Virus record (IMG/VR): IMGVR_UViG_3300029893_000062 | Span: 1-26,907 of that record | Strand: one strand, 5' to 3' | DNA: 26,907 bases | DNA from: a virus | Shown here: positions 1,567-15,724 of the stretch, one piece after another | Position numbering within the stretch: position 1 is the first letter of the stretch | How the letters are laid out: each line of letters starts with the position of its first letter | Made by a program: the position numbers and the translations under genes | Notes under the pieces: model-generated | What the model saw: only the letters and a program-made list of their open reading frames with translations | Databases searched by the model: none | What the model was told of the DNA's origin: nothing

Positions 1567-1596
1567 ATTAACCTCCTGTTAATTTTATTGAAATAA

Positions 1597-1734
1597 TTAT
1601 TCATAGTTTTCCTCTTTCTTTAGGTCTGCTAAGATTTCTTCCAACCAAAGTTCATAAGCTCCTTTAATTGGAATCTGTTCCATAGTATTAATGCAAATTT
1701 CAATTTTATTTAAAATTTCTTCCAATTTATTCAT
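1597..1734 (-). CDS. small protein of 45 residues between regulator and clamp
   Basis: A 46-codon minus-strand frame from ATG 1732-1734 to TAA 1597-1599. Its ATG overlaps the last codons of the ribbon-helix-helix gene (shared bases 1727-1734), the usual sign of translational coupling. It ends about 30 bases before the clamp start, so it fills the gap exactly. The translation begins MNKLEEILNKIEICINTMEQ and continues with an acidic, Trp-containing helix. I recognise no family. Its size and position would suit a small accessory protein or partner of the regulator, but that is inference only. The overlapping start and good fit in the operon make it more likely real than the 188-346 frame. Confidence 0.6.
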   Translation of the reverse strand: MNKLEEILNKIEICINTMEQIPIKGAYELWLEEILADLKKEENYE

Positions 1735-1921
1735 TTTCTTCAATTGGGAAATAGTGAAATCTCCTTCGACCTATTTCTCTTCTTAATTTAATTCCTTGTT
1801 TCTCCAAGTATTCAACTACTAATTTTTCTATTAAGATAGAGATATGTATTCCTTCTTCTTTTGAGATTTCCAATAGATAGTTATAAAGTATTTTATCTAG
1901 GGAGATAACGAAACTTACCAT
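1727..1921 (-). CDS. ribbon-helix-helix (CopG/Arc-like) transcriptional regulator
   Basis: A 64-residue protein starting MVSFVISLDKILYNYLLEIS. An N-terminal beta strand is followed by a helix (about residues 8-20), a short turn with Glu-Gly, and a second helix SILIEKLVVEYLEKQG. This is the classic RHH fold of CopG/Arc/MetJ-type dimeric DNA-binding proteins. The C-terminus is basic then acidic (RREIGRRRF ... EENE). The start is supported by an AGAGGTGA ribosome binding site about 7 bases upstream and a consensus promoter at 1942-1970. It is the first gene of the leftward operon and sits beside a divergent promoter pair with an inverted repeat, so autoregulation and control of the late promoter are plausible. 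An antitoxin role is possible for this fold, but no toxin is adjacent. Confidence 0.8.
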   Translation of the reverse strand: MVSFVISLDKILYNYLLEISKEEGIHISILIEKLVVEYLEKQGIKLRREIGRRRFHYFPIEENE

Positions 1922-1941
1922 TCAAATTCACCTCTATTCTT

Positions 1942-1970
1942 ATTATATCTTGAAATTTACAAAAAGTCAA
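1942..1970 (-). promoter_or_regulatory. sigma-70-type promoter for the leftward operon
   Basis: On the minus strand TTGACT (plus-strand 1965-1970) and TATAAT (1942-1947) are separated by exactly 17 bp. Transcription would start near 1935, leaving about 14 nt of leader that contains the AGAGGTGA ribosome binding site of the RHH gene. Confidence 0.85.
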
Positions 1971-1982
1971 TAGTCCAAATGC

Positions 1983-2017
1983 TACTAAATGGTATTAATT
2001 TTCAATATTATTTAGTA
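1983..2017. promoter_or_regulatory. imperfect 14-bp inverted repeat between divergent promoters (candidate operator)
   Basis: The arm TACTAAATGGTATT (1983-1996) and the arm AATATTATTTAGTA (2004-2017) are inverted copies matching at 12 of 14 positions, with a 7-base spacer. The repeat lies upstream of both -35 boxes (1965-1970 minus; 2043-2048 plus). Its central position and the adjacent ribbon-helix-helix gene suggest an operator. Binding is inference. Confidence 0.55.
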
Positions 2018-2042
2018 TTATTTTAAAATGAAGAATGTTTTC

Positions 2043-2071
2043 TTGACAATTTTCAATTTTTATCTTATAAT
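2043..2071 (+). promoter_or_regulatory. consensus sigma-70-type promoter for the head operon
   Basis: TTGACA (2043-2048), a 17-bp spacer and TATAAT (2066-2071) match the bacterial consensus at every box position. The start point predicted from the -10 box is about 2078-2080, directly next to the ATG of the first head gene at 2081. The transcript would therefore carry almost no leader. Confidence 0.85.
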
Positions 2072-2080
2072 ATTAAGGAA

Positions 2081-2545
2081 ATGGAGATTGAGTTATTTAG
2101 GGAAGGTTTAGTAGTTAATTCTCTTGAAGATGAGATAGCTTTCGATATTGCGTTTAATGGGTTTATATTTGGTGATTCGAAGGTTGAGTTAAAGTCGGAT
2201 GGAGTTTCGAGGGAGCGAATTCATTATTATTATGATTTAATTAAAGAGATTATTCGTGGTTATTCTTCGAGAGATGTAGAAGTTTTTCGTTCTTTTAAGT
2301 TATATTCTTTAGTTATGAAGAAGGCTTTCAGTGAAGTAAAGAAGTTAGATTTAGTTAGTTCGGAAGCTAGAAGTTCGTTAGCTATGGCAAAGCATTTAAA
2401 TATTATTTCTGAAGCTAGACAGCGGATAGATGAAGTTTTAGGTTTGAGGGTTCAGAAGAGTCTTTCGATGCAAGTTCCAGTTCCCCCTATAAATATTAGT
2501 CCAGAGGATATGGAGATTATAAGGAAGTATGTTGAATCAGCTTGA
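2081..2545 (+). CDS. putative terminase small subunit
   Basis: A 154-residue protein just before the large terminase, overlapping it by 17 bases. The sequence is mostly helical with charged residues. A central region (about 45-130) could form the DNA-binding and oligomerising helices of a TerS, and a short Pro-rich stretch PVPPINISPEDM precedes a last helix. I see no diagnostic motif; the call rests on size, position and helical nature. TerS recognises phage DNA and regulates TerL during packaging. The start is odd: no in-frame ATG, GTG or TTG exists upstream or for many codons downstream, so ATG 2081 is forced. The only ribosome-binding-like bases (AAGGA, 2075-2079) are one base from the ATG, too close to work. 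With the promoter at 2043-2071 this suggests a leaderless mRNA. Confidence 0.6.
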   Translation: MEIELFREGLVVNSLEDEIAFDIAFNGFIFGDSKVELKSDGVSRERIHYYYDLIKEIIRGYSSRDVEVFRSFKLYSLVMKKAFSEVKKLDLVSSEARSSLAMAKHLNIISEARQRIDEVLGLRVQKSLSMQVPVPPINISPEDMEIIRKYVESA

Positions 2546-3998
2546 TTTGAAGCGAATAGTATTAGCGAATGATATAAAGTTATTTGCCAAGGAAATTTTT
2601 GAAAATAATTTACCTTCTCATACGGATATTTATTTCAGTTCAGTTTTAAATAATAAGAGAAGTTTAATTTTAGCTCCTAGATGTTCGATTAAATCTACTT
2701 GTCTATCGATTATTTATCCAGTTTGGCGGATTGTTAGGGATAGAAACATAAGGATTTTGTTAATATCGAATTCGTTTAGTTTAGCGAGTCAATATATTCA
2801 ATTAATAGAAAGAGTTTTAGAAAGTGAGAAGTTAGTTTCGGTTTTCGGTTTATTCAAGCCGATTGATGCTTGGGATTTTAAGGACTCTTCGTTTACGGTT
2901 TTTCGGCCAAGAGATATGAAGGATTCTACTATGAGTTGCGCTGGGATTCTCTCTTCTGTGGTTGGGAAGAGGGTTGATTTAATAATTTTAGATGATGCCA
3001 TATCTTTTGAGGATTCCCAATCTTCTGAGTATTGTGATAAGATTAACAATTGGATTTTATCGGAAGTCTTCAATACTTTAGAACCGAAAGGCGAAATAGT
3101 GGTGATTGGAACGCCACAGTCAAGGTTTGATATTTATGGGATTTTGAGAGAGCTTCCTGGCTGGCATCTTGTTCATCTTAAGGCTATAGAAGGTGATAAA
3201 TTACTTTGGCCTGAAAAGTGGAGTAAAGAAGTTTTGGAGGAGAAAAGGCGTGAGATTGGTTCGGTTTTATTTGCGAGAAATTTTCTTTGTGAGCTCTTAT
3301 CTGAGGATGAAAGATATTTTCCTAGGTCGTTATTAAATAGTTGTTTATTGGAGAAGAGAAGATTTTTTTCCGAACAGTCTTATTATGTAATTGGTTGTGA
3401 TTTTTCTATCTTAACTGGTCACACTGCTAAAAAGAAACAAGGTGATTATACAGTTTATTTAGTGATGGAGTATGATCCTCTATTCGAGGAACGGCAAGTG
3501 ATTCATATTTTCAGGAAAAGAGGTTTGACGGTCTTTCAGCAGATTGAAGCTTTGAAAAATTTAGCAAGGAAATATAGACCAAGAAAGATTTTACTTGAGA
3601 ATAATGTTTTCCAAGATCTATATCATCAAATTTTAACTAAGATTACTGATTTACCTGTTAGGGGCTTTAAGATGACCAAGAAGAAGTGGCATCCAGTTGA
3701 GGGAATACCATATCTGAAGGAATTATTAATTCAGCAGAAGATTTTTTTCATAAAGGAGGAAATTGGTGAAGAATTAGTTAATATATTTTTAGACGAATTG
3801 GAAGTATTTCCGCAAGGAAAGCATGATGATATGGTAATTGCTTTATTTTTGGCGGATAAAGCCTTGAAGGGTTCTGGAGTTCGACCATTTGTTGATAGAA
3901 TGTCGGAGGGATTACAAACGAGTGATTTTCTTTATAATGAGGCGTTATCGGAAGAATTTTCTGGTGTTACTTTTACTGGTCAAAGTTTTCCGATTTAA
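2529..3998 (+). CDS. terL: terminase large subunit (packaging ATPase and nuclease)
   Basis: A 489-residue TerL that cuts concatemeric DNA and drives it into proheads through the portal. The ATPase half has a Walker A-like segment APRCSIKST (residues 49-57), Walker B LIILDD (151-156) and the coupling segment VVIGTPQSRFD (191-201). The nuclease half has an RNase H-like set of acidic residues: D291 (GCDFS), E357 (LLENN) and D433/D434 (KHDDMV). Residues 385-489 form the C-terminal tail. The Walker A departs from the usual GxGKS/T: the position before the Lys is Ile, not Gly. All other motifs look intact, so an active enzyme is likely. The start ATG is preceded by AAGGAAGT inside the end of the upstream gene, so translation is probably coupled. 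Confidence 0.93.
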   Translation: MLNQLDLKRIVLANDIKLFAKEIFENNLPSHTDIYFSSVLNNKRSLILAPRCSIKSTCLSIIYPVWRIVRDRNIRILLISNSFSLASQYIQLIERVLESEKLVSVFGLFKPIDAWDFKDSSFTVFRPRDMKDSTMSCAGILSSVVGKRVDLIILDDAISFEDSQSSEYCDKINNWILSEVFNTLEPKGEIVVIGTPQSRFDIYGILRELPGWHLVHLKAIEGDKLLWPEKWSKEVLEEKRREIGSVLFARNFLCELLSEDERYFPRSLLNSCLLEKRRFFSEQSYYVIGCDFSILTGHTAKKKQGDYTVYLVMEYDPLFEERQVIHIFRKRGLTVFQQIEALKNLARKYRPRKILLENNVFQDLYHQILTKITDLPVRGFKMTKKKWHPVEGIPYLKELLIQQKIFFIKEEIGEELVNIFLDELEVFPQGKHDDMVIALFLADKALKGSGVRPFVDRMSEGLQTSDFLYNEALSEEFSGVTFTGQSFPI

Positions 3999-4010
3999 GG
4001 AAAAGAAAAA

Positions 4011-5441
4011 GTGAAATCTTTAGATTTGAAGGAAAAGAATAGTTTTTCATTAACTAAATATTTTCCATTTAATTTAGTAAAACTGGAAAAAAAGAGAAAA
4101 GAAGAGCGGGAAGCAGAGAAAGCTGCGAAACAGTTATTATTAGAGTATGGTGCTACTGGAACTAGAATTTTAGCTGGTATAATTCAAGAGGAATATGAGA
4201 CCAAGTTGGCGGCTCTTCCGAATCGGATAGAACAGTTTGACCAAATGCGAAAATCTGATCCAACGGTGGCAGCTTGTCTATTAGTTTTTGAGTTACCGAT
4301 ATTAGCTGCTACTTGGTTTATTCAAGCTGCTTCGGAGCAGGAAGAAGACAAAACGATTGCTAAATTCATTTCAAATAATCTATTTGAAGAGGTTAGTATT
4401 ACTTGGAATGATTTTTTGAGACATGTTCTATTAATACTTCCATTTGGATTTAATATTTTCGAGAAAGTCTTCAAACTTGATGAAGAAACAGGGTTAATCA
4501 AATGGAAAAAATTTGCACCTCGTTTACCTCAAACTTTAAATCAATGGTTATTAGATGAAGAAGGTGGCTTAGCAGGAATAGTTCAAGAAGTTTATATTGC
4601 AAATGAATACAGACTTGTTGAAATACCAGTTGAGAAATTATTAGTTTTTACTTATCGAAGAGAAGGATCAAATTTCGAAGGTGTTTCTCTCTTACGAGCG
4701 GCTTATCGAAGCTGGTGGACTAAAGATAAATTACTGAAAATTCAAGCAATAGGATTGGAACGAAATGCAATTGGAACTCCAACTATTGGTTTACCTGATG
4801 AATATACTAGTCGGGACTTAGAAATGGCAAAAGACATTGTTAGGGCTTGGAGAGCTCATGAACAGATGGGATTTATTAGACCCCCCGGATTTGTCTTTGA
4901 ATCTTCTAATGTCGAAATGAAAGCAGAAGCCTTACAAAATGCAATATCCTATTATGACCATCAAATTGAGAAGTCTATGCTATCTAATTTTCTAGGGCTA
5001 GGTGAGGCAAGAAAAGGTTCTTATGCTTTATCAAAAACTCTTAAGGAAATTTATATGCTAGCTCTTCAAGCTATAGGAAAAGATATTTGCGATACTTTTA
5101 ATAAATATGCTATACAAAAGTTAGTAGATTTAAATTGGCCTGATCGAAAGAGATACCCTAAGTTAACCGTAAAAGGATTAGGCGAATTAGATCGAGAAAC
5201 AATGAGTGAAATAGTTGAGCGATTACAGAGATCGGGATTTCTAACAGCAGATGAAGGATTAGAAGATTTTTTCAGGAAGAGTTTAGATTTGCCTGAGAAA
5301 AAGATGGAGGAAACGAAAATAGGAGTAAAAGAAACAACTTTCGAAGAAGAGTTACAAGTTCTTTGTGAAAAGTATAATATCAAGAAAGAACAATTATATA
5401 AGAAAGATAATAAAACAACAATGAGGTTTTTAGGAAGATGA
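4011..5441 (+). CDS. portal protein, Mu gp29/DUF935-like
   Basis: A 476-residue protein in the portal position right after TerL. The pattern matches the DUF935/Mu gp29 family. After a basic helical N-terminus comes a segment with QFDQMRKSDPTVAACLL, then LPFGFNIFEKVF, a Trp-rich stretch, FTYRREGSNFEGVSLLRAAY (about residues 215-235) and QIEKSMLSNFLG near 320. In this family these elements form the clip, stem and wing around the DNA channel. The portal is a dodecameric ring at one capsid vertex that binds TerL and the connectors. The start is GTG at 4011 with AAGG ten bases upstream. The 3' end overlaps the next gene by ATGA (5438-5441), so the large fused enzyme is translationally coupled to the portal. 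The C-terminal 40 residues are very charged. Confidence 0.88.
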   Translation: MKSLDLKEKNSFSLTKYFPFNLVKLEKKRKEEREAEKAAKQLLLEYGATGTRILAGIIQEEYETKLAALPNRIEQFDQMRKSDPTVAACLLVFELPILAATWFIQAASEQEEDKTIAKFISNNLFEEVSITWNDFLRHVLLILPFGFNIFEKVFKLDEETGLIKWKKFAPRLPQTLNQWLLDEEGGLAGIVQEVYIANEYRLVEIPVEKLLVFTYRREGSNFEGVSLLRAAYRSWWTKDKLLKIQAIGLERNAIGTPTIGLPDEYTSRDLEMAKDIVRAWRAHEQMGFIRPPGFVFESSNVEMKAEALQNAISYYDHQIEKSMLSNFLGLGEARKGSYALSKTLKEIYMLALQAIGKDICDTFNKYAIQKLVDLNWPDRKRYPKLTVKGLGELDRETMSEIVERLQRSGFLTADEGLEDFFRKSLDLPEKKMEETKIGVKETTFEEELQVLCEKYNIKKEQLYKKDNKTTMRFLGR

Positions 5442-8400
5442 TTTATGAAAAGTGGACTGATTCACAGTTATTACAAGAGGAGAGAAGATTAAGAGGAATT
5501 TTTGAAGCTTGGTTGGCTGGAAGCAAGAAGGGCAGCATTGAAGCGGTAGTTAATGCACACGAACTAGTAAAAGATGAAATCTTAAGAAGAAAACTACCTT
5601 ATAAAAGGAGTGCAATAGACGAGTATCTAGACATAATAAGGAAGCAGGAAATTAACGAGATAATTGAATTTGAAGAAGCAAAACACGGATTAATACTTGT
5701 TAAACCTCATGGTGAAATGATTATGACAGGAGAGAAAACACTAATTATTAAGAGAAGGCATTTCGGCAAGTATATTGGAGAACCTCTTTATTTAATAGAA
5801 GGTAACCAAGCACTAGGAATCATTGTATTAAAGTCTCCTAAACCGATTAGCATTAAAGAGTTTTTTGACCTACAGCCACGACATAGAATTTCTGAATCTG
5901 AATTACATGAATGGTGGCCAGGAGCTTATTCATTTTACGCTTATGAATTTGACATTATTGAAAAATTTAAAGAACCAAAACCAATTGAAAGACCAGTTGG
6001 CCCACAAGTTTTCATAACAGATGTAAAATTTTTAGAAAATTATTTAGCTGAAATAGATTTTCTGAAACCTGTAGATACTATTACTGAAAGAGAAATAAAA
6101 GAAGCTTCTACTAAAATATTATGGGGAGATCTCTATTATTTAGAGATTGGCTGGAATCGTTTAAAAGATGGTAAATGGGGCAATTGGACAAAAGATGATA
6201 TAATTAAAACCACAGCTTTTATAATGAAAGAACTAAGAGAAAGAGGTTATGAAGTTCCAGCTTTAACTGAATTAAAACGAAAAGCAGAAAAATACTTACA
6301 AAAGGAATTATACGAAGATATAAACATTTTCACTGAAGATTTAATAGAAATGGATGTGCCAATTGGTCATCCAGAAGGTAAACTTTATTTGGCAAAAAGA
6401 ATTGTTCCCTTATTACCAGAACATAAAATTTATTGTGAACCGTTTTGTTTAGTAAAAGATTCGGAAGTTTTATCTGAAAGTGGATGGAAACCTATCCAAG
6501 AAATGCGAGTGGGGGAGAGAGTTTTCTCTTCGCTTGAATTTAAAACTATTTGTCAGACTTATGAAAGAGAATATCAAGGTCAAATTTTAAAGATTAAAGT
6601 GAAAGGTTATTTTGATTCAGTATCATTTACTGAGAATCATCCGATTCTTTGTATCAAAAGAGAGTTATTATCTTTGGTTAAACAGGAATGGCGGAAATCT
6701 TTTCCTTATCCAGTTCCAAAAATTAAATTTAGTCCGATAAAGTCTAGTCAAACAGAAAAGCAAGTTAAATTGAAAAAATTAACTGTTCAAAGAGCTCGAG
6801 AACTATTGAAATACGCTGAATACATCAAAGCCTCTGAAATAAAGAAGGGAGATCTATTGGTTTATCACTTTGATAATCTAAGAACTAATTGTTTCAAACA
6901 TCCAAGAATTTCGCTTCCTATAGCAAGGCATGGAGGAAGGCGAAGGAATAGACGAATCTCTGTATGTTTAAGCCGAAGTTTTTGCAGATTAATTGGTTTG
7001 TATTTAGCCGAAGGTTGTTATAGTAATAGCAGCGTTCTTTTTACCTTTAACAAGAAAGAAGTAGATTTGATTGATTTTGTTAGAAAAGAAATGAAACGCA
7101 TATTCGATTGTAATGGGTTCAATATGAAGAAAAGTATAAATTCAAATGTAGTAGCACTTCGCTTTAGTTCTGTCCAAGCGTCGAGGTTTTTCCAACAGTT
7201 TGGAAGAAGAGCAAGAAATAAATTTATACCCGAAAATTTAAAGAGATTATCAAATAGCAGACTTCTAATGCTACTTCGAGGTTTGTTTGAAGGTGATGGG
7301 CATTTTGCAAAAAAGGATAAATCCTTCTCTATTACTACTACTTCAAAGAAATTAGCAGATGATATTTTCCTATTGTTGTTAAGACTTGGATTTTGTCCTA
7401 CTCTAACTTTCGGGAAACAAACGACTGCTCTTCCTTTTACGAAGAGAAAGATTGATTGTGTTTATTTTACTCTTAGAGTTGGTTCTGATGGAGCTAAAAG
7501 ATTTGCGAAGCTAATGGGTAAAGATTTTATTTTTGGCTCACCCTCGCATTTGAGTCGGAGAAATGGAATTAACCTATTGAGATATTACCAAAATAAGGAA
7601 AAAATTGGATTTCTTTTAAGACGAGTTGAATCGATTATTTACTCGAATTATAATGGTAAAGTTTATAATTTACAAGTAGTAGATAGCCATTCGTTTATAA
7701 CTAGAATAGCAACAGTTCATAATTGCGGATCAGGAGCGGTTTTCTTTTCTAAACCGAAATCTGAAGTTGAAATTCTAAATGATATAGATGAAAATATTAC
7801 TTTTTTCCTTAAATTTTTGCAACGATGTAATGAAGAAGATATTAACTGGTTGAAACGGAAAGATTGGACTCCTAGTAAAAAGAAATATGAAAAATTTTTA
7901 AATAGTGATTGGAAATCTTTAGAGGATAAAGAAAGAATTTATAGATATTTCTATGCTAAAAGATATTCATTTAATAGGAATCTGAAAGAAGGGATAAGCG
8001 AATATTATAACAAAGTGGGAAAGGGGGATAGACCGCTCATTCCAGTTCTTTTTCAATCCAAATGGAAAAAATTTCACGATAGATTACAAAGAGTGAAGAT
8101 ATATAACAAAGATTATGAGGAAATTTTATTTAAATATGATAGTCAAGATACTTTGTTCTATATTGATCCCCCCTATCCTTCAGCTAGAACTTCTCGAATT
8201 TTTCCGTTTACTCAAGAGGATTTGGAAAAGTTGAAAGAAAATTTGGAAAAATTGAAAGGTAAGTTTATTTTATCAATTTCTTCGGATTATCAAAATTTTT
8301 TCGAAGACTTTGAAGTTAAGCAAATTTATACTCGGCATATATATCCTGATGATCCTAAATTACGAGGTAAACGAAGAGAATTATTAGTTTCTAACTTTAA

Positions 8401-9007
8401 ATTAAAAGAAATTGAAATGGAAACAGCTCCTATTTACCCTGGATATACTACTCCTAGACAAGAGCCTATTCTTTTAGATGAAATGTTAAGCTACTTTGAT
8501 AATGATGGCTTCGAAGTGATTCATCCTGTAGCTTATTTATGCGGAAATATTTGTAACTGGGGATTCAGCGATGGAGATATTGATTTAGTAATTAACCTAC
8601 CAGAAAATTTACCTGAAGAAATAAAGATTCCTATTATATTTAGAATTTTTAGAATGATACCTTTATCTGAAAGAGCAAAAATATGGCCAAGGCTACATAT
8701 TACTTGGAAAAATTATGTAACGAGTTTTACTAATCATATTCCACTTTGGAGTTTAAAATTTCAATCTATTAAACCCTTTGAATTAATAGAGATGGAAGAA
8801 CCAAAGTGGATGCTTCGTTATCCGAAAGAATCTTTAAGGCAAGCTGAAGAAGCGAAAGAAAAAGATAAAGTTGTATTATTCGAATTTTTCTATCCCTTGA
8901 AAAGTGGACAACCTGCTTTTCCTTTATCTAGAGAAAACAACAGATGGGATACGAAGTTTATCATCAACTATTTTCTCGAAAAAGAATTATTGAAAGAAAG
9001 TAGGTGA
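5438..9007 (+). CDS. fused ASCH-like / intein-split D12 adenine methyltransferase / nucleotidyltransferase-like protein
   Basis: A 1189-codon gene. Residues 1-75 are helical. Residues about 84-176 look like an ASCH domain (GEKTLIIKRRHFG, then a WWPGAYSFYAYEF end), a fold that binds RNA or modified nucleotides. Residues about 320-980 are a D12 DNA adenine methyltransferase: GKLYLAKRIVPLLPEHKIYC leads to EPF, then an intein (337-762), then CGSGAVFF, the catalytic DPPY at 910-913, and the closing RRELLVSNF typical of the family. Residues about 1000-1189 resemble a Pol-beta-type nucleotidyltransferase, with G1036-N followed by D1047-x-D1049 (SDGDIDLVI). After splicing the mature protein would be about 763 residues. 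It overlaps the portal gene by ATGA and is followed by a small gene after 4 bases. The methyltransferase call is strong; the ASCH and nucleotidyltransferase calls are moderate. The biological role is unknown: protecting packaged DNA is one inference. Confidence 0.85.
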   Translation: MIYEKWTDSQLLQEERRLRGIFEAWLAGSKKGSIEAVVNAHELVKDEILRRKLPYKRSAIDEYLDIIRKQEINEIIEFEEAKHGLILVKPHGEMIMTGEKTLIIKRRHFGKYIGEPLYLIEGNQALGIIVLKSPKPISIKEFFDLQPRHRISESELHEWWPGAYSFYAYEFDIIEKFKEPKPIERPVGPQVFITDVKFLENYLAEIDFLKPVDTITEREIKEASTKILWGDLYYLEIGWNRLKDGKWGNWTKDDIIKTTAFIMKELRERGYEVPALTELKRKAEKYLQKELYEDINIFTEDLIEMDVPIGHPEGKLYLAKRIVPLLPEHKIYCEPFCLVKDSEVLSESGWKPIQEMRVGERVFSSLEFKTICQTYEREYQGQILKIKVKGYFDSVSFTENHPILCIKRELLSLVKQEWRKSFPYPVPKIKFSPIKSSQTEKQVKLKKLTVQRARELLKYAEYIKASEIKKGDLLVYHFDNLRTNCFKHPRISLPIARHGGRRRNRRISVCLSRSFCRLIGLYLAEGCYSNSSVLFTFNKKEVDLIDFVRKEMKRIFDCNGFNMKKSINSNVVALRFSSVQASRFFQQFGRRARNKFIPENLKRLSNSRLLMLLRGLFEGDGHFAKKDKSFSITTTSKKLADDIFLLLLRLGFCPTLTFGKQTTALPFTKRKIDCVYFTLRVGSDGAKRFAKLMGKDFIFGSPSHLSRRNGINLLRYYQNKEKIGFLLRRVESIIYSNYNGKVYNLQVVDSHSFITRIATVHNCGSGAVFFSKPKSEVEILNDIDENITFFLKFLQRCNEEDINWLKRKDWTPSKKKYEKFLNSDWKSLEDKERIYRYFYAKRYSFNRNLKEGISEYYNKVGKGDRPLIPVLFQSKWKKFHDRLQRVKIYNKDYEEILFKYDSQDTLFYIDPPYPSARTSRIFPFTQEDLEKLKENLEKLKGKFILSISSDYQNFFEDFEVKQIYTRHIYPDDPKLRGKRRELLVSNFKLKEIEMETAPIYPGYTTPRQEPILLDEMLSYFDNDGFEVIHPVAYLCGNICNWGFSDGDIDLVINLPENLPEEIKIPIIFRIFRMIPLSERAKIWPRLHITWKNYVTSFTNHIPLWSLKFQSIKPFELIEMEEPKWMLRYPKESLRQAEEAKEKDKVVLFEFFYPLKSGQPAFPLSRENNRWDTKFIINYFLEKELLKESR
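6446..7723 (+). mobile_element. intein with LAGLIDADG homing endonuclease inside methyltransferase motif I
   Basis: A 426-residue in-frame insertion between EPF and CGSG of the methyltransferase. The N-terminal splice residue is Cys337 (start of CLVKDSEVLSESGWKPIQ). Block B is present as FTENHPIL with the TxxH pattern. The C-terminal end is VDSHSFI ... VHN with penultimate His761, Asn762 and the +1 Cys763, so all residues needed for class 1 splicing are visible. The two LAGLIDADG endonuclease motifs are LIGLYLAEG (518-526) and LLRGLFEGDG (612-621), each with its acidic residue, so the homing endonuclease looks intact. Spliced exteins restore EPFCGSGAVFF. Inteins typically sit in conserved active-site motifs, as here. 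The methyltransferase is inactive until splicing. Confidence 0.95.
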
Positions 9008-9011
9008 AATA

Positions 9012-9365
9012 ATGGCTATTATAACCAAGAAACGAGGCGGAAGATATTTAAGGAATTTCAGCTTCTTCCCAACTACTTCACGAACTCCCGCAACTTATAA
9101 CTCAGATTGGATAGAAGTTGGAGATTTAGATGAATTTATAATTTTTGTTGATGTAACTGCTGTAGAAGCAACTGCTACTCTTGATGTTTCTGCTATCTAT
9201 TCGCCAGATAAAACAACAGAATATGTCCATTCCTCATTAGCTCAAATATCAGCAGTCGGAAAATACTCACTCAGGATCCTGAATTTTGGAAGATATTTAA
9301 GAGTTAAAGCGATAGTAGGAACAGCTTCGGTAACTTTCGGAGGTTTAGGGATAGGCAAAGGATAA
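9012..9365 (+). CDS. small beta-rich protein, possible virion decoration protein
   Basis: A 117-residue protein with a basic N-terminus (MAIITKKRGGRYLRNFSFFP) followed by alternating hydrophobic and polar residues typical of a beta sandwich, ending in Gly-rich GGLGIGKG. No enzyme motif and no cysteines. GTAGGTGA before the ATG provides a ribosome binding site. It starts 4 bases after the fused methyltransferase gene, and its stop shares a base with the next start (TAATG at 9363-9367). Proteins of this size and composition are often capsid or tail decoration proteins, but I do not recognise a family. Its place between two large enzymes is odd for a structural gene; a small accessory subunit of those enzymes is an alternative. 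Confidence 0.75.
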   Translation: MAIITKKRGGRYLRNFSFFPTTSRTPATYNSDWIEVGDLDEFIIFVDVTAVEATATLDVSAIYSPDKTTEYVHSSLAQISAVGKYSLRILNFGRYLRVKAIVGTASVTFGGLGIGKG

Positions 9366-12300
9366 TGATGAAGATTAATGTAATTGGTATAAGAGGCGAA
9401 GTTCCTGAAATTGGTGAGCTGAAAGATACTGCTTACGCATCTCTTGAACTAGTAATTGGAGAATACTCGGTTATTTTCGATTTGGCAGATGAAAGAAGTT
9501 TAGAGTTAATTAAAGCAGTTCCATTAGCGTTATTCATAACACATTTACATAAAGACCATTTCGCTAAAGAGGTAATAAATGCTTTCCAACAAAGATTTCC
9601 AAAGGCTGAAATCTACATACCCCATCGTGTCCTTAAATCGAAATGGAAAGAAGAAACTGCACAAATCAAATTTAAGAAAATTGCGATTGAGGAAACAGTT
9701 GAGATTGCGAGCTTGAAAATTACCGCTTTCCCAGTAGTCCATTCGATTCTTGCTCCGACTGTCGGATATCGAATCGAAAATGAACAAAACTTACTTTATT
9801 TACCAGACTTTCTCTGGGTCGATAGAGAATACACTAAATATCTTGAAAATGTTGATATAGCCATTGTAGGAGCATCATCATTTGCTAAAAATATAGTGAG
9901 AATACCCAAAAATTTTCCCAATCTAAGAATTGGACATATTTCAATGAAGTCAGCTTTAAAATTGGCAAAGAAAAATGAATGGAAACAGGTTTACTTCACT
10001 CATTACGGTCGATTAGAAGGTCGAAAATTCAATGACATCGAAACGGACTTAAGAAAGGAGTTTCCGAATTTGAAATTGTTAAGACAAAATGAAGAGATAA
10101 AATTGAAAGAAATTGACACGATAATTCTGCAGAAAAAGTTTGACGGCGCTCTTTTGGCTTTACATAAGTCTGAGAAGAAGGTTCTAGCTTATACCGAACG
10201 AGGATTTGAAGTATCTCATAGATTACCATTTCTCACGAAAGAACTTTTAGCTTTCAAAAATCCGAAACGATTTGTTGTAATGATTGAAATGGAAAATTGG
10301 AAAGGCGGAGTGCATCGAGGGAGAGAGTTCGCTGGCTCGTATTTGATGGAAAAAGGAGCACCCGACGACCGATTCTTTGCGTTTCACGTTTGGGATATTG
10401 TATATTTTTGGGATGACGAACTCGTTCATCATGAACTACAGTTGACTCGAGGAGATATTCACGATCTACCTCTTATTGATAGACTGCGGTATTTAAGGTT
10501 AATCCCGTTTAAACAATCAACTAATGGAGTTCCCGATTTGAAAAAGAGTTTATTGAATTTAGTTCCAAGTCAAATGATCGAAACAAGCGAAGAACTAGAT
10601 GAAGCCATTCAAAATATGATGAAACAACCTGCTTGTGAAGGAATCATGATTAAAGATCCCAATCATAAGTTCCAACTCGACATGGTTTCCAACGAGATTT
10701 GGAAAGCCAAAGTTTACGTAGAAATTCACGCTATAGTTTATGACCGATACGAGACAAAGGTAAAGGGAGTTTATAATTATGGAATCGCTCTAAGATTTGA
10801 ACCAGATGACAAAATCGACGAACAAACGATTATAAAAATTAAAGATAAGGAATATACTAAAATCGGCAGAAGTTATGCTACGAAAGAAAAACTAGAACCA
10901 GGAACTATAGTCGAAATCCACGCTCATAATTTCGGCTACTACATCACAAAAGAAGATAAAAGACGAATTAACCTTTATGAACCAGTTTTCGCTGGTTCCA
11001 GACCAGAACAGAATATTCCAGATTCAGTTAAAGAAGCGTATAAAATAGCAGAGAGAGGTTTAGCTCTTAAAATTAAAGAAGAACAAGTAGAGTTTCAACA
11101 GTTCGTAAGTGCAGAAGAAATTGATATGGAAGATCCTTACTTGCTAGTCCCATATAGAGAGGAAGGTGGAGTGGAATATGTAGTGCAACTTCACATTAGA
11201 GGCCGTTCTTCGCATAAAGATTTGCGAATTGAGTTAACCAAAGACGTGCTTGTCGGTTGGACTCTCACCGATGCTATCAGAGGAGCTATCAAACAACCAA
11301 TTACTACTCTAGAGGAAGCTGAAAATATAGCTTACGATCCAAAACTTTTCAAAATTGATTGGAATACTGGACTACCTCATTTCAGAAGAAGAATAGTTAA
11401 AGGTAAACTAACTGCTCCAGTCTTTGCAGAAATTACTGCTATCAAAAAAGCTGTCGAACCACCTGAATGGAAAGATTTTCAAGGGGTTACTCCAGTTGGT
11501 GCGGTAGGAGCTACCGCTACACATCCCGGAGTATTTTATATAGTCGATGGAACTCCGAAATTTCGGAAAGCTAAAGCTTGGCATGGATCGAAAAAACCTT
11601 ATTTCTCGGAATGGTTCTTCAGGGGTGGTAAATTAAAAGGTCGTTATTTCGTTCGAAGATTGCGGTTTCCCGAGAGAAGACCAGCTGAAGCTTCAGATGA
11701 ATTCGATACCTATATCCAAGAAGCTCTGAATTCAATCGATACCGAACGAGAAACGGAGTTTTTTCTGCCCATCGATGGAACGGATTTCGAAAGAATAATT
11801 CTCCCACCACCAACTATCGGTGAAGAAGAAACTGGCTATTTATTTATCAAACCTCTCGACGAAACTTGTTACACATTATCAAAGGCTGCTGTAGACAAAG
11901 ATTATTTACCCACTCTTGGTTTTTCAGCTTTACCAGATTGGGTCAGAGAACAAATCCCTACTGAATTCCACTATTGGAAGAAAACTGCTACAAGCGAGGC
12001 TGTAGCTGTCAGGAATAAGTTGGTGGATTTAATTAGAAAAGGGGAAATAAAAATTGAATTTGAATTCCCTGAACTTAAAGAACTAAAGAAAAAATTAGGA
12101 CTAACCTTAACTGAAGAATTTTATAAATTTGAAGAAGAAAAATTCGAACCATTTAAAGCGGAATTAACCTTCCAATGGCAATGGTTCAAGGGAAGAAAAT
12201 TAATTAGACCTGGTGTAAGTAGAGAGCATTGGGATTTGAGAATAGATTTCGGTTCCGAAAAGAAAGACCGTTACTTTCATCTAGTTCTTGAATTAGATCC

Positions 12301-12646
12301 CCGCTTTAATCCAGTTGTCCACGGATATATGAAAAAAATGAAGAATCCAGAAGAAGCGATGGTTAAAGGTGGAACCGAAAAAGAACCTGAGTATCTACCG
12401 CCTAGCACTATCTGGAACCCAACTAAAGCTACGCCATCATTTATAGTTATATATCTAAAACGACATCCAATAACCGTTTTCATAAGACGACCAGACTTTA
12501 TAAAATTTGAAATCGATAGTAAAGAATTAAAGGGACTTTTCACTATTACCCGAGAAAATATGACAGATTTTTGGATTTTGGAAAGAACTAAAACTATTGG
12601 TCAGGAAAATTTTACCAAAACAGAGGAATTACTATTGACAAAATAG
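9365..12646 (+). CDS. fused metallo-beta-lactamase-fold / ATP-dependent DNA ligase / LigD-type phosphoesterase protein
   Basis: A 1093-codon gene, standing alone as one frame. Residues about 1-245 are a metallo-beta-lactamase-fold domain with H60-x-H62-x-D64-H65 and later His and Asp positions (FPVVHS, YLPDFLW, YFTHYG). Residues about 250-560 are an ATP-dependent DNA ligase core: nucleotide-binding K258-F-D260-G261, FHVWDIVYF (motif III-like), E425-GIMIK (motif IV) and K447-A-K449 (motif V), followed by an OB-fold-like region. Residues about 605-775 resemble the 3'-phosphoesterase of bacterial LigD: H610, H617, D619, R621 and FQGVTPVG. A second such module at about 930-1093 has H955-W-D957-L-R959 and the closing LKGLFTITRE pattern. 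The set fits DNA end cleaning and sealing. The overlap with the upstream gene suggests coupled translation. Substrates and the activity of each domain are inferred. Confidence 0.85.
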   Translation: MMKINVIGIRGEVPEIGELKDTAYASLELVIGEYSVIFDLADERSLELIKAVPLALFITHLHKDHFAKEVINAFQQRFPKAEIYIPHRVLKSKWKEETAQIKFKKIAIEETVEIASLKITAFPVVHSILAPTVGYRIENEQNLLYLPDFLWVDREYTKYLENVDIAIVGASSFAKNIVRIPKNFPNLRIGHISMKSALKLAKKNEWKQVYFTHYGRLEGRKFNDIETDLRKEFPNLKLLRQNEEIKLKEIDTIILQKKFDGALLALHKSEKKVLAYTERGFEVSHRLPFLTKELLAFKNPKRFVVMIEMENWKGGVHRGREFAGSYLMEKGAPDDRFFAFHVWDIVYFWDDELVHHELQLTRGDIHDLPLIDRLRYLRLIPFKQSTNGVPDLKKSLLNLVPSQMIETSEELDEAIQNMMKQPACEGIMIKDPNHKFQLDMVSNEIWKAKVYVEIHAIVYDRYETKVKGVYNYGIALRFEPDDKIDEQTIIKIKDKEYTKIGRSYATKEKLEPGTIVEIHAHNFGYYITKEDKRRINLYEPVFAGSRPEQNIPDSVKEAYKIAERGLALKIKEEQVEFQQFVSAEEIDMEDPYLLVPYREEGGVEYVVQLHIRGRSSHKDLRIELTKDVLVGWTLTDAIRGAIKQPITTLEEAENIAYDPKLFKIDWNTGLPHFRRRIVKGKLTAPVFAEITAIKKAVEPPEWKDFQGVTPVGAVGATATHPGVFYIVDGTPKFRKAKAWHGSKKPYFSEWFFRGGKLKGRYFVRRLRFPERRPAEASDEFDTYIQEALNSIDTERETEFFLPIDGTDFERIILPPPTIGEEETGYLFIKPLDETCYTLSKAAVDKDYLPTLGFSALPDWVREQIPTEFHYWKKTATSEAVAVRNKLVDLIRKGEIKIEFEFPELKELKKKLGLTLTEEFYKFEEEKFEPFKAELTFQWQWFKGRKLIRPGVSREHWDLRIDFGSEKKDRYFHLVLELDPRFNPVVHGYMKKMKNPEEAMVKGGTEKEPEYLPPSTIWNPTKATPSFIVIYLKRHPITVFIRRPDFIKFEIDSKELKGLFTITRENMTDFWILERTKTIGQENFTKTEELLLTK

Positions 12647-12663
12647 AAAATATATTTTATAAT
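12635..12663 (+). promoter_or_regulatory. internal consensus sigma-70-type promoter for the capsid genes
   Basis: TTGACA (12635-12640), a 17-bp spacer and TATAAT (12658-12663) match the consensus fully. The -35 box lies within the last codons of the ligase gene and its stop TAG is in the spacer. The predicted start near 12670 gives a leader of about 98 nt before the protease/scaffold gene. Confidence 0.85.
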
Positions 12664-12680
12664 ATAAAACGAAATCAAAG

Positions 12681-12745
12681 AAGGGCGTTTTCTTATTAAA
12701 TTGTTGGGCAAGACGCTCTTCTCTGATTGTAAAGAAGACGCCCTT
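12681..12745 (+). promoter_or_regulatory. structured 5' leader: long hairpin before the capsid assembly gene
   Basis: AAGGGCGTTTTCTT (12681-12694) can pair over all 14 positions with AAGAAGACGCCCTT (12732-12745), one pair being U-G in RNA. The loop contains a near-direct copy of the 3' arm, AGACGCTCTT at 12711-12720. A smaller competing hairpin, TCTTCT (12717-12722) with AGAAGA (12733-12738), uses part of the same arm. No U-run follows, so it is not an intrinsic terminator. The AAAGGAG ribosome binding site follows at 12754-12760, so the structure could affect mRNA stability or translation of the capsid genes. Confidence 0.6.
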
Positions 12746-12767
12746 ACCCAATTAAAGGAGTGATATA

Positions 12768-14405
12768 ATGAATGTAACAGATGAAACATTAGAAGAGTTA
12801 GAAGAGTTGGAAAAACGAAGAGTTCTTCCAGCTTACTATTATCCCACTTGGGTGAGTCCGTATTACCCTCGACCCGAAATCTATCCACCAATAAGACGAA
12901 GAGTTCCTCGAAACTACTATCCAGTTCCATTCTACCCCCGATTTCCAAGAGGTTATTATCCTGCGATTTATCCAGCCTTTCCACATATAGCAGTTCTAAA
13001 AGGAGAATTTGAAGAAATCGTCTCTTTACTCGATAAATTAATAGCTGCAGAAAAAAACGAAAAGACGAAAGAAATGTATCAAGAAGTTAGAACAAAAATT
13101 TTGGATCTTTTAAAGGTTCGAAAAGCGGAATATCAATTTGTAAATGATGAAGATGAAGAAATTGCTTTAGAAGTAATTGAATTGATCGAACCGCAGGAAA
13201 TAACTGAAATAATGACTTTACTTGATAAACTTATAGCAAATGCAGAAACCAATCAAGAGCGAAACATGGTAAGGGAAATTAAAGCTAAAATTTCTAGATT
13301 AGTTGGTGGAATTTATCCATATCCATACCCTTATCCAAGACCCTGTTCTTGTAGTGAAGAGAGAGGATTTAATATGATTACAGAGTTAACTAATGAATTA
13401 ATCTTTGACGAAAAAGGTCGTCAACAAATTGAAATTTTAAGAGTGGGAGAATGGGATCATCCTGTCCACGGTAGAATAAGTATTACTTTAGAAGATTTAC
13501 AAAATATGGTGGAAAACTTCGAATCTGGAGTTATAGCTAAAGAACTGCCCGTCAATTGTGCTCACGAAACGAAGCCTGGAGCCGTAGGTTGGATCAAGGA
13601 AATCTTTTTACAAGATAAAATATTAAACGGCTGGGTTGAATGGACTCCTGAAGGTAAAGAAAAATTAGAAAATAAAACCTATAAATATATTTCAGCTGAA
13701 TTTGAAAAAAACTACATAGATCCTGAAACTAAAGCTGAGCATGGAGCGACCTTAGTTGGAGCTGCTTTAACTATTAGACCTATGGTGAAAGACTTAGCTC
13801 CAGTAGCTATGTCTCAAGACGCAGTAGCTGATCTGGAGACTTTATGGAATTCTCTAATTCAACTAGAAGAAAAAATTACTGAAGTGCTTAAAGGACAACC
13901 GGGGAAAAAGTCTTTACTTGAAATGGCAAAACAAATGAAAGAATTAATCGGTAAAAAAATTGGCAAAAAAATAGAAAAATGCGAAGAAACTGCCGAAACT
14001 AAATCTTTAAAAGAACGAATACAAAATTTAGAAACAGAACTAAGAGAATCAAAAATCAAAGAAAAAGTAGCTAAATTGGAAGGGAAAATTCCAATGAATT
14101 TAATGAAAGAGTTAGAAACGCTCTATCTATCAATAGATGCTACAATTGAGCCTCAAATAGATAGCTTTTTGGAGAAGTTACCAAATTACTCTAAACTATT
14201 TACCGAGATTGGATTTTCAGGAAATTCAGAAGAAGTTACAGATTTGGATTCAATTGCTAAAAAAATTATGAAAACTGAAAATAAAAACTATCGAGAAGCT
14301 ATTCAAATGGCAATTGAGCGAAATCCGAATCTATATGAAGATTATAGAAACAAATTCAAAAAACTTTCTTTAGATGAAGAAAATTTGCAGTTAGGAGGTC
14401 GATAA
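12768..14405 (+). CDS. prohead protease/scaffold, Mu I-like, with repeated Tyr/Pro-rich N-terminal extension
   Basis: A 545-residue protein. Residues about 215-350 match Mu I-type prohead proteases: GEWDHPVHGRISIT, then NCAHE with H266, AVGWIKEI, GWVEWTPEG, YKYISAEF with S309, and LVGAALTIRPMV. His and Ser are the likely catalytic pair. Residues 350-545 are Lys/Glu-rich coiled coil, as expected for a fused scaffold cleaved on maturation. The first 202 residues are unusual: a Tyr/Pro-rich stretch (22-70), two related helical repeats (80-115 and 144-179, sharing LLDKLIA), then YPYPYPYPRP and CSC. An internal ATG at 13374 with its own ribosome binding site starts exactly where a normal I-type protein would begin. 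AAAGGAG precedes the long start. It lies first behind the internal promoter and structured leader, and before the cement and major capsid genes. Confidence 0.85.
   Translation: MNVTDETLEELEELEKRRVLPAYYYPTWVSPYYPRPEIYPPIRRRVPRNYYPVPFYPRFPRGYYPAIYPAFPHIAVLKGEFEEIVSLLDKLIAAEKNEKTKEMYQEVRTKILDLLKVRKAEYQFVNDEDEEIALEVIELIEPQEITEIMTLLDKLIANAETNQERNMVREIKAKISRLVGGIYPYPYPYPRPCSCSEERGFNMITELTNELIFDEKGRQQIEILRVGEWDHPVHGRISITLEDLQNMVENFESGVIAKELPVNCAHETKPGAVGWIKEIFLQDKILNGWVEWTPEGKEKLENKTYKYISAEFEKNYIDPETKAEHGATLVGAALTIRPMVKDLAPVAMSQDAVADLETLWNSLIQLEEKITEVLKGQPGKKSLLEMAKQMKELIGKKIGKKIEKCEETAETKSLKERIQNLETELRESKIKEKVAKLEGKIPMNLMKELETLYLSIDATIEPQIDSFLEKLPNYSKLFTEIGFSGNSEEVTDLDSIAKKIMKTENKNYREAIQMAIERNPNLYEDYRNKFKKLSLDEENLQLGGR
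13374..14405 (+). CDS. possible short form of the protease/scaffold from an internal start
   Basis: An in-frame ATG (codon 203 of the long form) is preceded by GAGAGG at 13361-13366 with 7 bases of spacing, as good as the sites of separate genes here. The product of 343 residues, starting MITELTNELIFDEKGRQQIE, would contain the whole protease and scaffold regions without the Tyr/Pro-rich extension. Nested in-frame starts are known in capsid assembly genes, such as lambda C/Nu3 and Mu I/Z. Use of this start is inferred. Confidence 0.4.
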   Translation: MITELTNELIFDEKGRQQIEILRVGEWDHPVHGRISITLEDLQNMVENFESGVIAKELPVNCAHETKPGAVGWIKEIFLQDKILNGWVEWTPEGKEKLENKTYKYISAEFEKNYIDPETKAEHGATLVGAALTIRPMVKDLAPVAMSQDAVADLETLWNSLIQLEEKITEVLKGQPGKKSLLEMAKQMKELIGKKIGKKIEKCEETAETKSLKERIQNLETELRESKIKEKVAKLEGKIPMNLMKELETLYLSIDATIEPQIDSFLEKLPNYSKLFTEIGFSGNSEEVTDLDSIAKKIMKTENKNYREAIQMAIERNPNLYEDYRNKFKKLSLDEENLQLGGR

Positions 14406-14408
14406 ATT

Positions 14409-14780
14409 ATGGCACAATCTCATTATGTCTTAGATAAATCTTTTAAGGCTGCCACAGATTTATCAGCAAATCAATACTGTTTCGTTAAACTTGGAGCTAA
14501 TGAAGGAGAAGTTACTCTCTGTGATACCCTTGGTGAATTTGCTGTAGGTGTTTTACAAAATAAACCTAAAGCAGGTCAACAAGCTGCCGTCAGACTACTC
14601 GGAACTTCAAAAGTAGTTGCTAATGCGGCTATCACTCGAGGAGCCTTCATTACTGCAGCTGCGACTGGCAAAGCTGTGGGGACTACTACAGCCGGCCATC
14701 ATATTCGAGCTCTAGCGTTAGAGGCAGCCACCGCAGTGAATGAAATTAAAGAATTTTATTTAGTTAATTTTAAATACTAA
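14409..14780 (+). CDS. capsid cement/decoration protein, DUF2190-like
   Basis: A 123-residue Ala/Gly-rich protein just upstream of the major capsid gene. It begins MAQSHYVLDKSFKAATDLSA, continues with YCFVKLGANEGEVTLC, a GVLQNKPKAGQQAAVRLLG stretch and an AITRGAFITAAATGKAV segment. This is the pattern of DUF2190-type capsid cement proteins, which trimerise at capsid three-fold sites and stabilise the shell. AGGAGG overlaps the end of the upstream gene, ahead of the ATG. The high Ala content and beta-rich pattern fit a virion surface protein. Family assignment is by pattern and position. Confidence 0.8.
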   Translation: MAQSHYVLDKSFKAATDLSANQYCFVKLGANEGEVTLCDTLGEFAVGVLQNKPKAGQQAAVRLLGTSKVVANAAITRGAFITAAATGKAVGTTTAGHHIRALALEAATAVNEIKEFYLVNFKY

Positions 14781-14800
14781 ATTAGAGGAGGTTAAACAGA

Positions 14801-15724
14801 ATGAAACCAACCTTAACAGATGTTCATGTAGATAAAATTTTAACAAACTTTTCAGTTGCTTGGAAAAATGAATTATTCATTGCTGAACAGATTTTTCCTC
14901 CAGTAATAGTCGAAAAGGAAAGCGATAAGTATTTTGTATATGGACAAGAAGCCTTTAAATTGGTTAAAGCTAAAAGAGCAGATGGTGCTCCAGCCGTTGA
15001 AGTAGATTGGTCAGTCTCTACTGATTCTTACTCAACCGATGTAAGAGCTCTGTCTAAACTTGTAACAGAGAGAATGAGAGCTAATGCCGATATTCCATTA
15101 AATATGGATAGAGATACGACCGAGTTTTTGACAGAGAAATTAGCGGTTGACCAAGAAGATGAAGCTGCTAGTATAGCATTTTCTACAGCATTTATAACCA
15201 ATTATGCTACTCTAGTGGGAACTGCTCAGTGGAATAACTACGATACTTCAGACCCTTTCTCGGATATTGAATTAGGAAAAGAATCTATTAGAACCAAAGC
15301 AGGTAAAGAGCCTAATTTAATTGCAGTTGGAGGAGCAGTCTTTGCTAAATTAAGACAACATCCAGATATTTTAGATAGACTAGGACACCATCGAAATAGA
15401 TTTGCTACTTCTGCGGATTTGGCTCAACTTTTTGAAGTAGAGAATTTCTTAGTCGGTAGAGCGCTGAAAGATACGGCTGCAGAAGGAGTTGCCGCAGTCA
15501 AAGCCTATATTTGGGGTAAACATTCCTTAATCGCTTATGTAGCTCCTAAGCCAGCTTTGAAAACTTTAACTTTAGGAATTACCTTTAGAGTTAGAGGTTA
15601 TAGAAAAACTAAACGATTTCCCCTAGCTCTCAGAGAGGGAGATTTAATAGAAGTTGATGACAATTATGCGATTAAAATTGTATCAACTGACTGTGGTTTC
15701 TTGATTGCAGATTGCATAGCATAA
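14801..15724 (+). CDS. major capsid protein
   Basis: A 307-residue protein in the major capsid position between the cement and connector genes, with the strongest ribosome binding site of the block (AGGAGG, 9 bases before ATG). It begins MKPTLTDVHVDKILTNFSVA, continues with AEQIFPPVIVEKESDKYFVY and a middle region rich in acidic residues and helices (FLTEKLAVDQEDEAA), and ends with a beta-rich part including LTLGITFRVRGYRKTKRFPL. The IFPPV ... DKYF segment recurs in HK97-fold capsid proteins of several siphovirus groups. No long N-terminal delta domain is present, in line with a separate scaffold. I cannot place it in one exact family. Confidence 0.82.
   Translation: MKPTLTDVHVDKILTNFSVAWKNELFIAEQIFPPVIVEKESDKYFVYGQEAFKLVKAKRADGAPAVEVDWSVSTDSYSTDVRALSKLVTERMRANADIPLNMDRDTTEFLTEKLAVDQEDEAASIAFSTAFITNYATLVGTAQWNNYDTSDPFSDIELGKESIRTKAGKEPNLIAVGGAVFAKLRQHPDILDRLGHHRNRFATSADLAQLFEVENFLVGRALKDTAAEGVAAVKAYIWGKHSLIAYVAPKPALKTLTLGITFRVRGYRKTKRFPLALREGDLIEVDDNYAIKIVSTDCGFLIADCIA

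Follow-up and report, generated by a model that had tools for sequence, protein, structure and literature searches.

A ligase-centred multi-enzyme module linked to viral head genes suggests a DNA-repair cargo working at packaging or in the virus particle

Introduction

In bacterial NHEJ, LigD (POL-PE-LIG) is partnered by Ku, and in the DNA-ligase-associated damage-response operons (TIGR04120 ligase) an MBL exonuclease is associated with an ATP-dependent ligase. Phages of the portal/terminase type encode polyvalent proteins, very large multi-enzyme proteins for which packaging and injection have been predicted (Iyer et al. 2017, PMC5512222). Their assemblin-like peptidases are always C-terminal, and a role in virion assembly has been proposed for them (PMC5512222). 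In mycobacteriophage Corndog, four modification enzymes are encoded from portal to protease; they are expressed and absent from CsCl-purified virions (PMC4351075). The archaeal virus ANMV-1 encodes AJP62006.1, named 'ATP-dependent DNA ligase' (KP703175), a protein that the main text of the ANMV-1 source paper does not mention.

The locus described here lies in a window (the whole stretch of DNA that was analysed) of 26,907 bases, an IMG/VR virus record classed linear. Two genes of the window, ORF A (5438–9007, 1189 aa; 763 aa predicted post-splicing) and ORF B (9365–12646, 1093 aa), appear to encode together a modular machine of nucleotidyltransferase (NTase), ATP-dependent DNA ligase/OB and phosphoesterase (PE) domains, with MBL and ASCH accessories and an adenine methyltransferase. 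We regard this module as a ligase-centred variant of the phage polyvalent proteins. As in that class, disparate enzymatic domains are joined in one polypeptide and encoded with virion or late genes, Pol-beta-like NTases are predicted, and an assemblin-like peptidase is found at the C-terminus, here in six relatives of the module. However, 'DNA ligase', 'lactamase' and 'ASCH' are absent from the main text of PMC5512222 (term search), and the polyvalent hub domains zincin MPTase and ArdC-N, which are not obligatory, gave no Pfam match in the module proteins scanned. Moreover, polyvalent proteins are reported to be poorly represented in archaea (PMC5512222), yet an archaeal virus carries this core. 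The first-pass annotation knew of no described phage system with this set; we likewise found no paper describing it in the open-access literature, but the broader class is already known.

With LigD the module shares a ligase, a PE domain that retains its metal site (PE1) and a nucleotidyl-transferring domain. It differs in that the latter appears to be a Pol-beta-like NTase, the scanned module proteins having no Pfam match to a primase-type POL domain, in the loss of the His84/Tyr88 equivalents from PE1, in its two or three PE copies, in its MBL, ASCH and methyltransferase partners and in its location in a head operon. Ku was found in none of 25 records, many of them fragments, while the positive control, the B. 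subtilis genome, was detected. Unlike the MBL exonuclease of the TIGR04120 operons, the window MBL scores as RNase Z/PhnP-like, with no ligase-associated exonuclease model among the matches listed, and it is fused in one chain with PE domains in a phage head context. Corndog likewise has enzyme genes between portal and maturation protease, as well as a beta clamp and a Ku-like gene, but its slot holds an O-methyltransferase and glycosyltransferases instead of a ligase module (PMC4351075). The ANMV-1 protein comes closest in architecture, with NTase-ligase-OB-PE1-PE2 directly 3' of the portal gene (24% identity over 831 columns), but without MBL, ASCH and methyltransferase.

The findings suggest an undescribed kind of DNA-repair cargo, working at packaging or travelling in the virus particle. 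They reveal a viral protein family that is widespread but has hardly any members in cultured phages, and whose DNA end-repair enzymes are coupled to assembly of the capsid. This opens a direct test of whether phage particles bring along a ligase and end-healing enzymes of their own, and it bears on the sealing of linear phage genomes without host NHEJ and on prohead proteases as deliverers of enzymatic cargo. As multi-function DNA ligases, the proteins might also find applications.

Results and discussion

Organization of the locus

The genes are arranged in the order TerL, portal, ORF A, orphan, ORF B, protease, cement protein, major capsid protein and tail genes, and all features given below lie on the plus strand unless stated otherwise. 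A small ORF preceding the terminase large subunit gene (2081–2545) has no family match and is a TerS candidate by position. TerL (2529–3998; phrog_38, 5.7e-67) is followed by a portal gene of the Mu/P23-45 type (4011–5441; Pfam Portal_Mu, 5e-49; phrog_113, 7e-75). ORF A and ORF B both sit between this portal gene and the gene for a Mu I-like head maturation protease/scaffold (12768–14405; Pfam Mu-like_Pro, 6.9e-14; phrog_328, 5e-14), behind which the major capsid protein is encoded (14801–15724; phrog_1005, 2.5e-78). The start of ORF A is embedded in the final codons of the portal gene, with a 4-base ATGA overlap at 5438–5441; this overlap, like the coordinates and reading frames of the first-pass annotation, was borne out. 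Between the two large ORFs lies an orphan gene for a protein of 117 aa (9012–9365), which overlaps ORF B by one base (TAATG) and had no clear relative in family and homology searches.

A perfect (12/12) sigma70-like promoter match is located at 12635–12663, upstream of the protease and capsid genes, where a fresh promoter had been proposed. An equally good match lies at 2043–2071, upstream of the TerS candidate and the operon of packaging and enzyme genes; both are consensus matches only. They are the only two 12/12 matches within 1500–15000, while weaker matches are about as frequent as expected by chance (42 observed versus 46 expected). Taken at face value, the enzymes would be transcribed together with terminase and portal as a single unit, and a second promoter would serve the capsid genes. 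Since no terminator-like site is present between the enzyme genes and the capsid genes, read-through appears likely. Between the second perfect match and the protease start lies a leader hairpin (12673–12728, z -3.3), which has no Rfam match.

Three further genes of the window may be mentioned. On the minus strand, a phage-encoded bacterial-type sliding clamp DnaN with all three domains (415–1566) adjoins a ribbon-helix-helix regulator (1727–1921), and a GT4-type glycosyltransferase gene (18332–19435) is located among the tail genes.

Domains of ORF A

ORF A begins with a helical domain that recurs in the family (5453–5632; family HMM), followed by an ASCH domain (5687–5986) that shares 28–50% identity with its relatives. 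The ASCH region has no Pfam or NCBIfam match; its AlphaFold model (pLDDT 89), however, matches solved ASCH-like structures in Foldseek, namely 2dp9 (TMq 0.80, E 3e-8), ZmASCH and YqfB, and the modelled structure confirmed a PUA-like ASCH fold. An alignment of full-length ORF A was discarded for modelling because methyltransferase fragments were misplaced in it.

The methyltransferase is encoded in two parts. The first, recognized from the sequence, runs up to motif I and ends in CEPF (6356–6445), and the second contains CGSGAVFF and DPPY (7724–8410; Pfam, 2e-14; phrog_56, 2.5e-34). Between them lies an intein of 426 residues (6446–7723, residues 337–762 of ORF A), which interrupts motif I (EPF/CGSGAVFF); this motif is uninterrupted in the relatives. 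The element has Cys1, TxxH (TENH), a terminal HN (VHN), Cys+1 and LAGLIDADG endonuclease motifs (Pfam LAGLIDADG_3, 1.9e-13; Intein_splicing, 7e-6; TIGR01443 at cut-off). With the intein removed, the methyltransferase would have its motifs intact and is of the D12 class (Dam), with FxGxG in motif I and the catalytic DPPY at residue 910. The last domain is a putative minimal Pol-beta-like NTase (8474–8779) with a G..DxD motif. Whereas matches to Pol-beta-like profiles are weak, the G...DxD signature is invariant across 22 relatives; the third acidic residue, present in many relatives, is absent from the window copy. The ASCH, methyltransferase and NTase-like domains proposed for ORF A stand, and the intein and the N-terminal helical domain have to be added to them.

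Inteins or intein-sized insertions, with Pfam confirmation for some only, are also found in the same enzyme set of other contigs (L009, L016, L038, L039, L043, L053, L057, L058 and L060). Their insertion sites differ among viruses and comprise methyltransferase motif I, positions within or after the NTase, the ligase near motif V, PE1 and the MBL.

Domains of ORF B

The amino-terminal MBL domain of ORF B (9383–10012; Pfam Lactamase_B_2, 5e-17) is phosphodiesterase-like and has the expected Zn ligands, as HxHxDH, H, D and H are conserved. The full-length AlphaFold model was unreliable in this region (pLDDT about 45), and the MBL call is made from sequence. The catalytic domain of the ATP-dependent DNA ligase (10121–10678; Pfam DNA_ligase_A_M, 1.3e-9; Foldseek) contains KFDG, and the KFDG, E, D, EG and K of motifs I–V are conserved. 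It is followed by an OB domain (10730–11029), which is recognized by a family HMM, falls in a high-confidence region of the model and was missing from the earlier domain list of MBL, ATP ligase and two phosphoesterase-like domains, otherwise upheld here. Fold, Pfam and PDB profile all match DNA and not RNA ligases.

Family profiles of PE1 (11132–11671) and the degenerate PE2 (12179–12583) match the LigD-type PE structures 3p43/3p4h. The metal triad His/His/Asp of PE1 (His42/His48/Asp50 in LigD) is invariant in 20 aligned rows and is lost in PE2. In PE1, the Arg is retained in nearly all rows, whereas Tyr88 is replaced by Trp throughout the 20 rows and His is missing at the His84 position. Both His84 and Tyr88 are needed for phosphoesterase activity in P. 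aeruginosa LigD (PMC8656161). As PE1 lacks these two residues and PE2 is degenerate, healing of 3' ends by the PE domains is no more than plausible.

Distribution and variation of the module

Alignment-based scans of viral contigs detected the NTase/ligase/OB/PE core, whole or in part, in 46 distinct IMG/VR contigs and in ANMV-1. In total the core is present in 48 records, which form 24 clusters at 60% identity. Since the survey uses short peptide patterns, these figures represent a sample and not a census. Among 50,697 phage records, only ANMV-1 matches beyond the ligase domain itself. A single-sequence search with ORF B yielded no relatives, and alignment-based searches were needed. One scan of genome contigs returned an archaeal chromosomal ligase alone, without the module; a search with the portal for close relatives found none, and one with the major capsid protein found four contigs, all without the module. 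With the exception of ANMV-1, the relatives are metagenomic contigs, mostly incomplete, and their domain assignments come from profiles that started with the window sequences and were extended inside this set.

The core NTase-LIG-OB-PE1-PE2 changes little among the relatives, although domain order varies, and the module occupies one polypeptide in some relatives and two in others. In L035, a single polypeptide ASCH-helical-MBL-NTase-LIG-OB-PE1-PE2 is flanked by portal and protease genes. The accessories are variable and include MBL, ASCH, the helical domain, the D12 methyltransferase, HAD/PNK-phosphatase, 2H and a cytosine-methyltransferase-like part, the last called in L019 by its PPC motif only. 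Most of the varying domains are phosphoesterases or end-processing enzymes (PE, MBL); a 1632-aa relative (L031:8705–13603) combines ASCH-NTase-ligase-PE with HAD/PNK-3'-phosphatase-like and 2H phosphoesterase-like domains. Besides the window, six relatives belonging to one cluster have the adenine methyltransferase; most members lack it. Where close pairs were usable, dN/dS is about 0.06–0.16, indicating strong purifying selection. Hints at the hosts differ, with a bacterial-type clamp and sigma70-like promoters in the window and an archaeal TATA-binding protein in ANMV-1.

Linkage to portal and prohead protease

Gene neighbourhoods were counted in 44 of the 48 records, as the other four end at the 3' side of the module. 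The protease is fused to the module in six; in 24 its gene follows directly, no more than 122 bases away, and in one a single ORF intervenes. A distance of 2.4–8.4 kb, with intervening genes, was seen in nine, and the remaining four showed no protease. Counted by cluster, 18 of the 23 include a member with a fused or adjacent protease. If each cluster is given a chance of 0.15, which is deliberately generous, the probability of this count is about 2e-11, a rough figure because counting any member favours large clusters. According to Pfam, an XkdF protease and the ligase share a single ORF in L015 (6e-23), L034 (8e-33) and L025 (7e-14), and in L036 XkdF (3e-18) lies downstream of the NTase/PE part. 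The fused proteases of the six relatives are C-terminal, while the window protease is a separate gene behind its own promoter-like site. Directly upstream of the module, most records tested have a portal gene (L002, L015, L019, L023 (weak), L024, L025, L028 and L037); in L034 and L036 a MuF-type head gene takes this place.

The metagenome search proposed in the first-pass annotation thus recovered the portal-to-ligase neighbourhood, with the module beside portal or protease in many contigs. At the level of sequence, this conservation of the enzyme set and its tie to head genes in many unrelated viruses rules out that the set is found only here by chance insertion. On the other hand, the portal, protease and major capsid protein of L064 are similar to those of the window, yet the slot holds other genes, namely a calcineurin-like metallophosphoesterase and a MuF-like gene (L064:1530–2417). 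The portal-protease slot is therefore a variable cargo space and not a fixed part of the head.

Proposed function

The co-occurrence of a ligase, an NTase and several phosphoesterases follows a 'heal and seal' logic of end repair, which leads to a LigD-like end-healing reading. The link to the prohead protease, including direct fusion, favours, as our leading idea, that the module acts during packaging or within the virion. We tentatively propose a Ku-less, LigD-like 'heal-and-seal' polyprotein that is made with the head and acts on the ends of the genome, either during packaging or once it has been ejected; our confidence in this falls just short of even. The enzyme genes would be co-transcribed with terminase and portal, and only splicing of the intein would render the methyltransferase active. 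The proteins would then associate with the prohead, be released by the prohead protease in the fused versions and remain with the packaged DNA. Damaged or terminus-cut genome ends would be trimmed and sealed, and the DNA methylated, at packaging or soon after ejection into the next host. From the sequences we can read the predicted domains, the integrity of the motifs in ligase and methyltransferase, the layout of the operon and the repeated association with the protease, including fusion; virion carriage of the enzymes is what we infer from these.

Several observations count against this proposal: the separate protease of the window, the residue losses in PE1 and PE2, the missing third acid of the NTase, the different slot contents in L064 and the distant or missing protease in nine and four records, respectively. 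The packaging or virion role put forward in the first-pass annotation gains from the conserved set and its tie or fusion to head genes, but Corndog illustrates that a portal-to-protease slot alone is no proof of carriage. A broader version, in which bacterial and archaeal tailed viruses equip the prohead with a LigD-like polyprotein through genetic linkage or fusion to the prohead protease and eject it with the DNA for virion-borne, Ku-independent end joining that heals, circularises and marks the incoming genome, seems to us possible, if doubtful.

The main rival dispenses with virion carriage. Within the infected cell and close to portal and terminase, the enzymes would work on the replicated concatemer, sealing nicks, cleaning terminase-cut ends and methylating DNA before packaging. 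This would fit the window, where TerS, TerL and portal share the promoter-like site of the enzymes and protease and capsid genes follow another, as well as the portal as the usual upstream neighbour and the absence of the Corndog slot enzymes from virions (PMC4351075). The prohead-protease fusion in six contigs, however, puts the fused versions, at the least, inside or on the prohead, and we judge this rival somewhat unlikely. It is improbable, in our view, that the enzymes are primarily an injected counter-defence cargo, shielding incoming DNA from host restriction and nucleases by methylation and by repair of restriction cuts. The adenine methyltransferase of the window and its six relatives would suit such a task, and P1 Dar/Ddr and other polyvalent proteins provide a class precedent (PMC5512222), but the constant core consists of ligase and PE, the methyltransferase is confined to a minority, and the proteins scanned contain no known antirestriction or MPTase domain.

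Less probable still are ordinary DNA-metabolism genes parked in a permissive late-operon slot, without a role in packaging or the virion. Other contents of the slot in L064 and Corndog (glycosyltransferases) agree with such parking, and the module could serve replication in the 17 of 19 relatives searched in which no separate second DNA ligase was seen. In two large contigs (107 and 128 kb), however, a second, ordinary ligase is encoded elsewhere, which means that their head ligase is not just the one used in replication; the repeated finding, across clusters, of the protease next to or fused with the module also argues against parking. Finally, a module repairing tRNA or RNA ends is very unlikely, since the ligase, which has an OB domain, scores best as a DNA ligase, the module includes a DNA methyltransferase and PE is the DNA-end domain of LigD, even though NTase, 2H, PNK-phosphatase and RNase Z/PhnP-like MBL domains occur in RNA repair too.

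Two observations were made alongside. Short genes of 153–212 aa (L065:5977–6615 and L066:5923–6384), considered as precedents for a methylase-protease fusion, were rejected on account of their size; these XkdF-like protease genes are named 'DNA methyltransferase' in public records, probably through annotation carry-over. In L019, a 629-aa protein (L019:7409–9298) without Pfam or NCBIfam match is encoded between the portal and the cytosine-methyltransferase-like/NTase/ligase protein, and by eye it resembles DNA-modifying enzymes of the tRNA-guanine transglycosylase type.
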